A model generated the notes under the pieces. That model was not told the origin of the DNA and searched no databases. It saw only the letters and a list, made by a program, of their open reading frames with translations. Shown here piece after piece: positions 52,778-58,035 of a stretch of 64,000 nt of DNA. Source of the DNA: Archangium violaceum (GTDB lineage: Bacteria; Myxococcota; Myxococcia; Myxococcales; Myxococcaceae); NCBI RefSeq assembly GCF_016887565.1, contig NZ_CP069396.1, positions 6,368,001 to 6,432,000 on the forward strand, read 5' to 3'. The position numbers and the translations under genes are program-made. Numbering within the stretch: the stretch's first letter is position 1; the number at the start of each line of letters is the position of its first letter.

Positions 52778-53530
52778 ATGCCCTCCCCATCGAAGGTCCT
52801 CTCGGTCCAGGAGCTACGCAAGCAGTACGGGGCCACCGTCGCCGTCGACGGCATCTCGTTCGACGTGGGCCGCAATGAGATCGTCGGGCTCCTGGGGCCC
52901 AATGGTGCCGGGAAGACCACGACCATCAACATGGTCCTCGGTGTCCTCGAGCCGAGCTCGGGGTCCATCCGCATCGAGGACGTGGAGCTCTCGAGGCGCC
53001 GCTCCCAGGCGCTCGCGCGCACCAACTTCGCCGCCGTCTACGCGCCCCTGCCCGGCAACCTCACCGTGCAGCAGAACCTGCGCGTCTTCGGCCTCATCTA
53101 CGGCGTGAAGGGGCTCACCCAGCGCATCGAGGAGCTGCTCGCGCAGTTCGACCTCGTGCGCTTCCGTCACGTGAAGTGCGGCGTGCTCTCCTCGGGAGAG
53201 CAGACGCGGGTGGCCCTGGCCAAGGCCATGCTCAACCGTCCCCGGCTCCTGCTGCTCGACGAGCCGACGGCCTCGTTGGATCCCTCGACGGCGCGCGACA
53301 TCCGCGCCCGGATCCGCGAGTTCGCCACACAAGGGGAGGGCGGTGTGCTCTGGACCTCGCACAACATGTACGAGGTGGAGGAGGTCTGCGACCGCGTGCT
53401 CTTCGTCTCGCGCGGGAAGATCCTGCTCGAGGGAGATCCCAGGCGCCTGCCACAACAGCACGGCAAAGCGACGCTCGAGGAGCTGTTCATCACCGTGGCG
53501 CGCGAGCCGCTCGCGCTGGAGCAGGCCTGA
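52778..53530 (+). CDS. ABC-2 type exporter ATP-binding protein
   Basis: 250-residue cytosolic ATPase. Walker A GPNGAGKTT at about 40-48, Q-loop region NFAAVYAPLPGN, signature LSSGEQTRVA (variant of LSGGQ), Walker B LLLLDEPTASLDP and switch His in WTSHNMYEVEEVCD. It resembles the DrrA/NodI-like ABC-2 subfamily that exports antibiotics, polysaccharides or lipids. The permease gene begins two bases after its stop. Start ATG 52778. Confidence 0.95.
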   Translation: MPSPSKVLSVQELRKQYGATVAVDGISFDVGRNEIVGLLGPNGAGKTTTINMVLGVLEPSSGSIRIEDVELSRRRSQALARTNFAAVYAPLPGNLTVQQNLRVFGLIYGVKGLTQRIEELLAQFDLVRFRHVKCGVLSSGEQTRVALAKAMLNRPRLLLLDEPTASLDPSTARDIRARIREFATQGEGGVLWTSHNMYEVEEVCDRVLFVSRGKILLEGDPRRLPQQHGKATLEELFITVAREPLALEQA

Positions 53531-53532
53531 CC

Positions 53533-54336
53533 ATGTTTCCCACCCGCGCCGCCGCCATCATCCTCCGTCAGTTCTATCTCCTGCGTGGCAGCCCCTCGCG
53601 CGTCTTCCCGCTCTTCGTGTGGGTGGCCATCGACATCGTGCTGTGGGGCTTCATCACCCGGTATCTCAATGCCGTCAGCGGCTCTGGCCTCGACTTCGTG
53701 CCCTCGCTCCTGGGCGCGGTGCTGCTCTGGGACTTCCTGACCCGGGTCATGCAGGGCGTGACGATGGCGTTCTTCGAGGACGTGTGGTCGCGCAACTTCC
53801 TCAACATCTTCGCCACGCCGCTCTCCATCTCGGAGTACGTCGGCGGGCTGGTGCTCTCGAGCATCGCGACGAGCTCGGTCGGGCTCATCGTGATGGTCGT
53901 CGTGGCGGGCACGGTGTTCGACCTGTCGCTGTTCTCGTACGGCATCCTGCTCGTGCCGTTCCTGCTCGTGCTCTTCCTGTTCGGGATTGCCCTGGGCATC
54001 TTCGGCAGCGCGGTGGTGCTCCGGCTCGGGCCGTCCGCGGAGTGGTTCGTCTGGCCCATTCCCGCCGTGGTCTCGCCGTTCGCTGGTGTGTTCTATCCGC
54101 TCGCGACGCTGCCGAAGTGGATGCAGCTCATCGCGCACCTGCTGCCGCCGTCCTACGTCTTCGAGGGCATGCGGACCATCGTCTCGGGAGGTGCGTTCTC
54201 GGGGACCACGCTGCTGTGGGGCGTGGGGCTCGCCGTGCTCTACATCCTGCTGGCGTGCTGGTTCTTCACGCGCGTCTACCGGCACGCGGTGCGCACCGGC
54301 CTCATCGCCCGCTACAGCGCCGAGAGTGTGAGCTGA
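53533..54336 (+). CDS. ABC-2 type exporter permease
   Basis: 267-residue inner-membrane protein with six predicted helices, typical of DrrB/NodJ-like ABC-2 permeases. Landmarks: LFVWVAIDIVLWGFITRYL, LLWDFLTRVMQGVTMAFFED, the conserved P-x-x-x-x-P segment around PIPAVVSPFAGVFYPLATLP and the loop helix HLLPPSYVFEGMRTIV. It is coupled to the ATPase gene and ends the unit; a palindromic hairpin follows 40 bases later. Substrate not visible. Confidence 0.93.
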   Translation: MFPTRAAAIILRQFYLLRGSPSRVFPLFVWVAIDIVLWGFITRYLNAVSGSGLDFVPSLLGAVLLWDFLTRVMQGVTMAFFEDVWSRNFLNIFATPLSISEYVGGLVLSSIATSSVGLIVMVVVAGTVFDLSLFSYGILLVPFLLVLFLFGIALGIFGSAVVLRLGPSAEWFVWPIPAVVSPFAGVFYPLATLPKWMQLIAHLLPPSYVFEGMRTIVSGGAFSGTTLLWGVGLAVLYILLACWFFTRVYRHAVRTGLIARYSAESVS

Positions 54337-54376
54337 GCCGGGTGGGGGAGGGGACCTTCCGGTCGCGTGCCGGACG

Positions 54377-54401
54377 AACTGGTCCGATGGTCGGACCAGT
54401 T
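54377..54401 (+). terminator. Terminator-like hairpin after the ABC exporter
   Basis: Perfect eleven-base arms AACTGGTCCGA / TCGGACCAGTT with a TGG loop, 40 bases after the permease stop, followed by GTTCCC rather than a U-tract. Likely the end of the two-gene transcript; an operator role is less likely because no start follows. Confidence 0.55.
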
Positions 54402-54452
54402 GTTCCCGAGTGCGCCCGGGACCTCCCCCTGCCAAGACCTGGCTCCTGCCGC

Positions 54453-54723
54453 TAGTGGAATGTCCACGAAGTTCGTGGACAGAGTCGTGTTGCGCATGCT
54501 CCCTCTCCCTCTGGGAGAGGGCGGGGGGTGAGGGTCGTCACCCTCGTGTTCCTCGCCCCGGCTTGTATCGCGGCACGCAACCGCCCCCCTCGCCGTCCGC
54601 TGTGAACTCCCATGGGGTCATGCGCTCCAGGGGGAAGACCCTCACCCTAGCCCTCTCCCAGAGGGAGAGGGGACATCCACGGGCCCTCGGACTCTGTCCA
54701 AGGACTTCGTGGCCACTCCACTA
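54453..54723. mobile_element. MITE-like element, 267 bases, TA target duplication
   Basis: 31-base imperfect terminal inverted repeats (27 identical): GTGGAATGTCCACGAAGTTC... at 54455-54485 and its counterpart GTGGAGTGGCCACGAAGTCC... read from 54721 to 54691 on the other strand. The ends are flanked by TA on both sides (54453-54454, 54722-54723), as for Tc1/mariner or IS630-type insertions. Inside, a second inverted pair around CCTCTCCCTCTGGGAGAGGG (54499-54535 and 54638-54672) forms a large stem. No transposase is encoded, so it must be mobilised in trans. It also holds the perfect TGTCCACGAA/TTCGTGGACA palindrome at 54461-54481. Confidence 0.8.
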
Positions 54724-57700
54724 GCCGGTCTTCCCGAGGCGCTGCCACTCCCGAAGGATCTGCTGATGCGCGGCGATGCCGAGGAACGAGCGCCGGAGCC
54801 CTTCGTCGTGGAGCCTCCTGGCCCAGTCCTGGAGGTGGCGGTGGGCCGTCTCCAGCACCCCCTTCGCGCGTGAGTCCTGATGCGCCTGGAGGACCCGGAA
54901 GCAGACCAGACGGATCCAGAAAGGCTCCTCGGTCCCATCGAGCCGCCCGCCCCGCTCCAGGTGCGCGAGGATCTCCTCCACGTACCCCAGGGCCTCGCGC
55001 ACCTCACCGGCGGTGAGCGCCACCGCCGCCAGGCCCGCGACGGACTCCATCTCCAGGTGCGGCATCCGCGCCGCCACCCGGATGCTCCGGGCCCGCTGGT
55101 AGGCCTCGCGGGCCTCCGGGATGCGATCCAGCGCGGCCAGGGCATGGCCCCGCGTCATCCACGCGAACCCCTGGTACCGGGTGCTGCCGATATCCTGGCC
55201 GATCCGCAGCGCCTGATCGGCCAGCTCCAGCGCGGACGAGGCATGCCCCTGGAAATAGTGCAGCAGCGCCAGGTTGCAGCGGTCCACGCACTCCCAGAAC
55301 CGGTAGCCGATCACCCGGCTGAACTGGAGCGTCTGCTCGAAGTCGGCCCGCGCCTCGGCGAACTCTCCCAGGCTCTTGCGCAGGTACGCCAGGTGCCTCA
55401 GCGCCGAGAACTCCAGCCAGCGGTCCTCCATCGCCCGGCAGAAGGGGAGCACCCGCTGCACGTAGGACAGGCTCGTCGCCAGGTCTCCCGTCTCCTGGAT
55501 GACCGCGCTCAGGTTGAGCAGGTTCTCCACCTCCAGGTGCGCGAGCCTCGCGGACTCGGCCAGCACCAGGCTGCGCTCGAAGTGGCTCCGGGCGCTCGTG
55601 AAGTCTCCCTGGTGGTGCCTCAGCATCCGCCCCCACCGCAGGTAGCCGAGCGCCTCGCTGGCCACGTCTCCCGTCTCCTGCGCCAGCCGGATCGCCTTGC
55701 GCACCGCCTCCACGCCCGACTCGAGCTCTCCGACCTCCGAGGCGTAGAGCGCCCGGCGCAGCGCCGCCTCGGCCTGCCGCCGCGGGTCGCCGAGGATGTC
55801 CGCCAGCACCTCCATCATCTCCAGATCCCGCCGCTGCACCCGGCGCTCGCCCATCACGGCGTGGACCTTCTCCCGTGCCGCCACGATGGCGTAGCGCTCG
55901 GCGAGATCCGTCTCGGGCGTCAGCGCCAGGGCCCGCTCCAGGAACGAGCGGGCCTCCGCGTTGGCGAACAGGACCAGGGCCTCCTCTCCCGCCCGCCGCA
56001 GGTAGACGGCCGCCCGCACCGCCTGTCCGGAGGCCTCCAGGTGGTCCGCGATCAGCCCGAGGTGCTCCCGCGAGCGCTCGCCTCCGCGCGCCAGCAGCCA
56101 CTCGGCGATGCGCCCGTGGAAGGCGCGCCGCTCGCGCTTGAGCACGGTGTCGTAGGCCACCTCGCGCACGATGGCGTGCTTGAAGATGTACTCGCGCGTG
56201 CCGGCGAACGCCGGGCTGGACTGCTCGAAGATGAGCTCCCGCTCCTGGAGGGCGAGCAGGGCCTCGTGGACCGCGATGGGCGCGGCCCCCTCCCGTCCCA
56301 TGCTCGCGAGCGCCTCGTCCCAGAAGATGCGGCCCACCACCGAGGCGCGCTGGAGGATCTCCCGCTCGTGCACGGGAATGCTGTCCAGCCGCGCCTGGAG
56401 GACGCCGCTCAAGGTCGAGGGAACCTTGAGCGAGGTGAGCCGGCGTGGCTCGACGCGCCAGCGCTCGCCATCCACGAGGATGACGCCCTCCTCGAGGAGC
56501 ATCTGGATGAGCTCCTCCAGGTAGAACGGGTTGCCCTCGGCGCGGCTGACCACGAGCTCGTGGAGGGCGGGGGGGATGTCCTCCACCTTGCGCAGCAGCT
56601 CCGCCACCAGCTGGTGGCTGTCCGCCGGGGACAGGGGCCTCAGCTCGAGCCGGAGGTGCGCGGGGTCCAGGTCCCATTCGGGCCGCCGCTCGAAGAGCTC
56701 GGGCCTGGCGGTGCAGAGCACCAGGAGCCGCTCGGGCGCCAGCGTCTGGAGCAGGCGCTCCAGGAGATCCAACGCGCTGTCATCCGCCCAGTGGATGTCC
56801 TCCAGGAAGAGGACCATGGGCTCGCGGCTCAGGAGGGCCCGGAAGTACTCGCTGAGGGCGGCGAGGCCCCGGGCCCGACGGCTCTGCTCGTCCGTGGGGG
56901 TGCCCTTCACATGGGGGCTGTCGCTGAAGTCGAAGCCGAGGAGCGAGCCGGCCAGGTGGGCGCGGCCGCGGCTCGAGTCCTCGGGGCCGAGCGCCTCGCG
57001 GAAGGCATCCTCCATCCGATCGCGCACCACGCTGGGGGGATCGCTCTCCTGCAGCTGCAGGTGGAAGGAGAAGAGATCCCGGAGCAGGGCGTTGGGGTGC
57101 CTGCGCATCTCCGGGCTGGCACGTCCGCGCAGGCACCGGGGGGGCTGGGGCAGGGACTCGAGCCAGGTCTCGAACTCCCCGAGCAGCCGTGACTTGCCCA
57201 TGCCGGCCTCGCCGGTGAGCGTCACCCGCTGGCAACCGCCCCCGGAGACCGCCGCGGACAGGGCCTCGCGCAGGCGGCGCGACTCCTCCTCGCGTCCCAC
57301 CAGCCGGGACCAGACGCCCTCCAGGCCCCGGCCTTGCCGGCGGAAGGCGTGCGGCCGGGCCGCCGTCACCCGGTACACCTGGAGCGGCTCCTGCTTGCCC
57401 TTCAGGCGGAGGGGGGCCTGGGGCTCGACGTCGAAGGCCCCGCTCACGTGGCGGTACGTGCCGTGCGAGATGAGGATGGTGCCCTCGGCCGCGGCCTGCT
57501 CCAGGCGGCTGGCCGTGTTGACGGTGTCTCCCATCACCGTGAGCTCCCCGAGCGTGCCCACCACGCCCAGGAGCACCGGGCCCGTGTGGACGCCGATGCG
57601 CATGCGCAGGCCCTCGGGGGGACCGGCCAGGAAGGAGGAGAGCTGCGCCTGGATGTCCAGCGCGGCGTGGAGCGCCTGCTCCGGATCATCCTCGCGCGCA

Positions 57701-58035
57701 CCGTCCGCGCCCCAGAGCGCCATCACCGCATCGCCGATGTGCTTGTCGATCCGCCCCCCGTGCCGGACGATGGCCGCGTCCACACGCTCCCAGAGGGCGT
57801 TCATCAGCTCGCTGACGTCCTCCGGGTCCATGCGCTCGCTCATGGCGGTGAAGCCGCAGAGGTCGCCGAAGAGCACCGTGACGTGGCGGCGCTCCAGGGG
57901 CACCTGGGAGGCCAACGCCGCGATCCGGGCGCGCAACGCCACCAGCGCGGCCTCGACGGCCTCGTCGCCCAGGGCTGGGCGCTGTTGCTCCAGCATGGCG
58001 ATCGCCCGCAGGAGCAGGTCGCGTTCGTTTCTCAT
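54721..58035 (-). CDS. Adenylate cyclase-AAA ATPase-TPR signalling protein
   Basis: 1104 residues. A class III cyclase domain (about 45-225) has metal-binding Asp58 (LFGDLCGFTAMSE) and Asp102 (DKHIGDAVMALWG), Lys98 and the Asp of TVMGDTVNTASRLE, the Lys/Asp pair that selects ATP. A NTPase domain follows with Walker A GEAGMGKSRL (about 272-281) and Walker B MVLFLEDIHWADDSALDLLE, then a long helical TPR-rich region to the end, as in AcyC/LuxR-type ATPase signalling proteins. Cytosolic. Its TAG stop is at the boundary of the MITE-like element; the stop was regenerated. Divergent from the LRR gene with 77 bases between starts. ATG 58035. Confidence 0.93.
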   Translation of the reverse strand: MRNERDLLLRAIAMLEQQRPALGDEAVEAALVALRARIAALASQVPLERRHVTVLFGDLCGFTAMSERMDPEDVSELMNALWERVDAAIVRHGGRIDKHIGDAVMALWGADGAREDDPEQALHAALDIQAQLSSFLAGPPEGLRMRIGVHTGPVLLGVVGTLGELTVMGDTVNTASRLEQAAAEGTILISHGTYRHVSGAFDVEPQAPLRLKGKQEPLQVYRVTAARPHAFRRQGRGLEGVWSRLVGREEESRRLREALSAAVSGGGCQRVTLTGEAGMGKSRLLGEFETWLESLPQPPRCLRGRASPEMRRHPNALLRDLFSFHLQLQESDPPSVVRDRMEDAFREALGPEDSSRGRAHLAGSLLGFDFSDSPHVKGTPTDEQSRRARGLAALSEYFRALLSREPMVLFLEDIHWADDSALDLLERLLQTLAPERLLVLCTARPELFERRPEWDLDPAHLRLELRPLSPADSHQLVAELLRKVEDIPPALHELVVSRAEGNPFYLEELIQMLLEEGVILVDGERWRVEPRRLTSLKVPSTLSGVLQARLDSIPVHEREILQRASVVGRIFWDEALASMGREGAAPIAVHEALLALQERELIFEQSSPAFAGTREYIFKHAIVREVAYDTVLKRERRAFHGRIAEWLLARGGERSREHLGLIADHLEASGQAVRAAVYLRRAGEEALVLFANAEARSFLERALALTPETDLAERYAIVAAREKVHAVMGERRVQRRDLEMMEVLADILGDPRRQAEAALRRALYASEVGELESGVEAVRKAIRLAQETGDVASEALGYLRWGRMLRHHQGDFTSARSHFERSLVLAESARLAHLEVENLLNLSAVIQETGDLATSLSYVQRVLPFCRAMEDRWLEFSALRHLAYLRKSLGEFAEARADFEQTLQFSRVIGYRFWECVDRCNLALLHYFQGHASSALELADQALRIGQDIGSTRYQGFAWMTRGHALAALDRIPEAREAYQRARSIRVAARMPHLEMESVAGLAAVALTAGEVREALGYVEEILAHLERGGRLDGTEEPFWIRLVCFRVLQAHQDSRAKGVLETAHRHLQDWARRLHDEGLRRSFLGIAAHQQILREWQRLGKTG

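Follow-up and report, generated by a model that had tools for sequence, protein, structure and literature searches.

An IS630-type MITE family in an Archangium genome occupies CTAG target sites that commonly coincide with TAG stop codons

Repeats that furnish the stop codons of their neighbours and MITEs with IS630-type ends are already known (RUP, BOX and GTAG-tagged REPs), and the two Archangium families described here add to them. RUP (the repeat unit of pneumococcus, with ends like those of IS630-Spn1) is small, non-autonomous, bounded by IS630-type ends and enriched between convergent genes (PMC3049150), as is the element that we call type A; the Archangium MITE differs from it in its host, its end sequences, its near-constant CTAG target and its positions at TAG stops, and in residing in a genome without a matching transposase. 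IS630 of Shigella sonnei and ISY100 insert at TA and duplicate it (PMC2170065), as found here, and a preference of IS630 for the TA in CTAG is reported by Tenzen and Ohtsubo (1991), a title in the reference list of PMC2170065. Unlike these, the element studied here carries no transposase gene, and the insertion sequences related to it, 1.2 kb in length, often have their frame split at a run of C. In 36 cases a BOX element provides the stop codon for an adjacent gene (PMC3049150), and the ends of GTAG REPs often give TAG (PMC3733652), a likeness to type A. REPs, however, lack IS630-type ends with TA duplication at their borders, whereas the stop at a type-A MITE is regenerated from the CTAG target. 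MITEPsy1 of Pseudomonas syringae is likewise a short MITE with CTAG among its targets, but it is reported to make a 4-base duplication and to derive from ISPsy2, not IS630 (PMC3189936). A literature search, outside which most subscription journals lay, returned no paper that combines MITEs, myxobacteria and IS630.

The element lies in a window (that is, the whole stretch of DNA analysed, 64,000 nucleotides) of a 13.2-Mb, single-contig Archangium genome. The element proper measures 267 bp (54455–54721) and is bordered by TA on either side, for a length of 271 bp with both (Table 1). Its inverted ends span about 34 bases (arms of 36 nt and 89% complementarity when the flank is counted), and what they enclose includes chance ORFs only, with no convincing gene and no transposase gene. 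The core motif CCCTCTCCC occurs in inverted pairs and is also present outside the type-A MITE. No second match to the 34-base right end was found within the window at up to three mismatches, and a search of Rfam gave only matches below the gathering scores. Approximately 25–30 related copies are dispersed through the genome; many of them are homologous with the same boundaries, which rules out a chance inverted repeat, supplies the further copies that the sequence-only reading had proposed to look for and bears out its description of a 267-base, MITE-like element with inverted repeats. In its shortness, its lack of a transposase gene, its terminal inverted repeats and its dispersed copies with shared boundaries, the element agrees with an IS630-type MITE.

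Table 1 Features of the type-A MITE and its flanking genes (window coordinates)
Feature	Positions	Strand	Basis
Probable ABC-transporter permease, convergent neighbour ORF	53176..54336	+	neighbouring ATPase ORF and hydrophobic sequence
Type-A MITE with both target TAs	54453..54723	-	TA-flanked; homologous copies share boundaries
TA target duplication, left copy	54453..54454	.	sequence; single CTAG at the exact empty site of a sister copy
Left terminal inverted repeat including TA, TAGTGGAATGTCCACGAAGTTCGTGGACAGAGTC	54453..54486	+	33/40 first bases match an end of the IS630-type insertion sequence L167
Inner palindrome CCCTCTCCC-TCT-GGGAGAGGG, half of core	54501..54521	.	
Second inner palindrome CCCTCTCCC-AGA-GGGAGAGGG	54651..54671	.	
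Right terminal inverted repeat including TA	54690..54723	-	32/40 first bases match an end of L167
TA target duplication, right copy; first two bases of the minus-strand cyclase TAG stop	54722..54723	.	sequence and ORF
Gene with insertion at its TAG stop, 1104 aa: guanylate/adenylate cyclase domain, AAA ATPase, TPR	54721..58035	-	

The ORF and both junctions agree with the earlier claim that the insertion falls exactly in the stop codon of the cyclase gene and regenerates it: the TAG consists of TA (54723–54722) and the first base of the element, G (54721). Beside the other TA, the old flank is C54452, which reads as G in the minus-strand orientation and gives CTAG as the target; given this C-TA-G target and an element that begins with G at both ends, TAG is kept on both sides and the gene is unchanged. 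The permease ORF, which probably starts further downstream than listed, stops 116 bases short of the element. Adjoining the element, a palindrome around ACTGGTCCGATGGTCGGACCAGT (54350–54428) matches the core of a second MITE type, and the cores of both types are found elsewhere in the genome without MITE ends.

Several type-A copies are of full or near-full length and 93–96% identical, and some twenty others are shortened or older. The second type (type B, 276 bp) has the termini TAGTGGAGTGTCC in common with type A and a different palindromic core. Four type-B copies (L063–L066, at 3072048, 6512088, 11596411 and 12310824 of the same genome) are 99.6% identical, which indicates recent mobility, and one of the four has inserted in the CTAG of a type-A core. 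Type-A matches, some only partial, are present in all six genomes of the genus, and of 96 genomes in the family, 23 contain the exact terminal motif. The same termini also bound a cargo-bearing MITE relative (L168, G082:C59, 1149–2390) that contains a UPF0489-domain gene (PF12640) and no transposase.

In nearly all copies the junctions read CTAG. For a sister copy (G000:468435), the congener G003 retains the exact empty site: an uninterrupted GCGTCCTCCTAGCGG with one CTAG, in which the TAG stop of the gene is already there. At the site of the copy at 1211390, the G003 gene likewise ends in TAG without an element. Comparison at four further sites (4833628, 5340561, 6497246 and 11615927) shows TGA or TAA, not TAG, as the stop of the G003 gene, so that a pre-existing TAG is directly seen in some cases only. 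Three copies (L170 at G003:C4:609071, 6497246 and 1381367) have TTAG on one side and CTA on the other, and L089 fits a CTAT target; as these copies keep the element's own G and C, duplication of the two bases TA is favoured over duplication of the four bases CTAG. The TA duplication proposed from the window alone is thereby supported at the level of the family, by the empty site of the sister copy and by the asymmetric flanks.

In relatives, pairs of the terminal motif approximately 1.2 kb apart bound complete insertion sequences, two ORFs of which jointly span NF033545, the model for IS630 transposases, with scores of 32.5 bits (first ORF) and 121.6 bits (second ORF) against a cut-off of 100 bits; the second also matches PF13358. 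The MITE ends match those of these insertion sequences at 31–33 of 40 terminal bases, compared with 10–13 of 40 for an unrelated resident IS630, and are therefore ends in common with an autonomous IS630-family element. In L163, L165 and L167 a conserved tract of seven C divides the transposase between two frames, and in L164, with a longer C tract, the frame is continuous; a programmed frameshift or slippage is possible. The genome of the window yielded no relative of the matching transposase, and the MITEs are therefore orphans in it. It has one DDE_3 gene only, which is broken and has different ends, and the resident IS630 copy (approximately 12030530–12031360) was rejected as mobiliser for its broken reading frame and different ends. 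Relatives, but not this genome, thus contain an IS630-type transposase with matching ends, of the kind that the sequence-only reading had suggested seeking. On sequence grounds, we suggest that both MITE families are transposase-less derivatives of an IS630-family (Tc1/mariner-like) insertion sequence, currently mobile in this genome only putatively.

The word CTAG is approximately 20-fold under-represented in the genome: 401 kb contained 56 occurrences, against 1151 expected from base composition. By gene calls that follow a GC3 rule, these 56 comprise 16 TAG stops, 15 sites within genes and 25 intergenic sites. This and the counts of MITE copies below rest on such calls, and a count from annotation could shift them somewhat. 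For 16 of the 19 best type-A copies, an automatic rule places one end exactly at the TAG stop of an ORF of coding-like base composition, compared with 16 stops among 41 (39%) non-genic background CTAGs (Fisher P = 0.001). Two more were added by eye, making 18 of 19: L010, whose gene does not pass the GC criterion, and L015 (2966670), where the gene beside the copy reads CAG in place of TAG with TGA directly next, probably a lost stop whose role the next codon has taken over. A further copy (L013) is 8 bases off a stop. Type-A copies also lie between convergent genes more often than background sites (13 of 17 classifiable copies versus 8 of 32; P = 0.0007). When only CTAGs in tandem or convergent contexts are used for comparison (14 of 23 at stops), the type-A excess at stops is marginal (P = 0.09). 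The recent type-B copies are spread much as CTAG itself is (at one stop, inside a gene, in a repeat and between genes), and the autonomous copies with GTCCG ends are mostly not at stops. One MITE (L088) and one full insertion sequence (L167) each lie between convergent genes that would share a single CTAG as the stop on both strands, and in each case both genes have kept TAG.

We consider it highly probable (roughly 0.88) that the element is an IS630-type MITE that moved in trans into a CTAG, and that such MITEs come to lie at stops through the rarity of CTAG and the loss of harmful insertions. An IS630-type transposase, presumably that of the relatives, would have moved the MITE in trans by cut-and-paste into TA, nearly always within CTAG, with duplication of the TA; the helper may since have been lost from this genome, or its arrival may have been earlier and transient. 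Insertions inside or in front of genes would have been lost, leaving the tails of genes, above all between convergent genes, and purifying selection would then be the cause of the enrichment at stops and between convergent genes. The position at a stop follows from the combination of a CTAG that is very rare in a high-GC genome, the nearly one third of remaining CTAGs that are TAG stops, and loss elsewhere. The insertion in the cyclase stop, as the sequence-only reading described it, is real, but it is the usual address of the type-A subfamily, which CTAG target and selection would explain, and not a singular accident. The case provides a counted example of a transposon target word, made rare by the genome but retained at TAG stops, that directs copies to harmless places, and links two Archangium MITE families to the IS630-type insertion sequences of relatives.

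A transposase drawn to stop codons in their own right, or to the termination of translation, would account for the 16 of 19 type-A copies exactly on TAG stops, yet the recent, same-ended type-B copies went into a gene, an intergenic site and a repeat as well as one stop, and most autonomous copies with GTCCG ends are off stops; as a CTAG target with loss from genes and promoters is enough to account for the coincidence, and no targeting of stop codons is needed, we regard such recognition as extremely improbable. Hardly more credible is duplication of the whole CTAG by an element that is IS5/IS701-like and not IS630. The CTAG at both junctions of most copies is compatible with either length of duplication, and MITEPsy1 of Pseudomonas does duplicate CTAG or YTAA (PMC3189936), but the transposases encoded by the same-ended insertion sequences are of the IS630 family, the TTAG copies keep CTA on the opposite side and L089 fits CTAT.

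Somewhat more weight, although still little, belongs to the proposal that positive selection keeps type-A copies at stops for their use as hairpin 3' ends, whether to stabilise mRNA, to terminate transcription in both directions or to insulate convergent genes from each other. The element folds into one long hairpin (RNA fold of −181.5 kcal/mol, z −12.8), type A lies mostly between convergent genes, and stops are far commoner for type A than for the same-ended type B (16 of 19 versus 1 of 8; P = 0.0009). However, many type-A copies are shortened or decayed, the excess is marginal when set against CTAGs downstream of genes, and type A is older than the recent type-B copies, so that the contrast between the two can be put down to age and to the removal of harmful insertions. 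Nor was a terminator-like site (a G+C-rich hairpin with a run of T) found in 54200–55000 on either strand; the element has no U-tract and lacks the signature of an intrinsic transcription terminator. Of the earlier suggestion that strong hairpins 3' of the gene may act as a terminator, the long hairpin stands, and a terminator or other role at the 3' ends of the two convergent genes is only a possibility. In the strongest form of the proposal, type A would have been domesticated as a portable 3' gene end, in which a stop and the long hairpin directly after it shield or end convergent transcripts, and selection would have retained copies at stops while the rest disappeared; we think this unlikely. 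The occupied and empty stop sites form a set on which the terminator or insulator question would be directly testable.

At the window locus itself, G003 has no element and its cyclase gene ends in GGC TAG, at the same codon. A clean two-sided empty site was sought here and set aside: in the four other congeners the transporter gene lies at a different place from the cyclase gene, and in G003 the cyclase end is followed by a 2.6-kb segment with two ORFs (L246, G003:C3:381300–384300, about 193–2790), so that the far half of the site is unreadable there. On the far side of this segment, beside the transporter gene, lies a direct repeat (23/24) of the final 24 bases of the cyclase gene, as if a small island had integrated.
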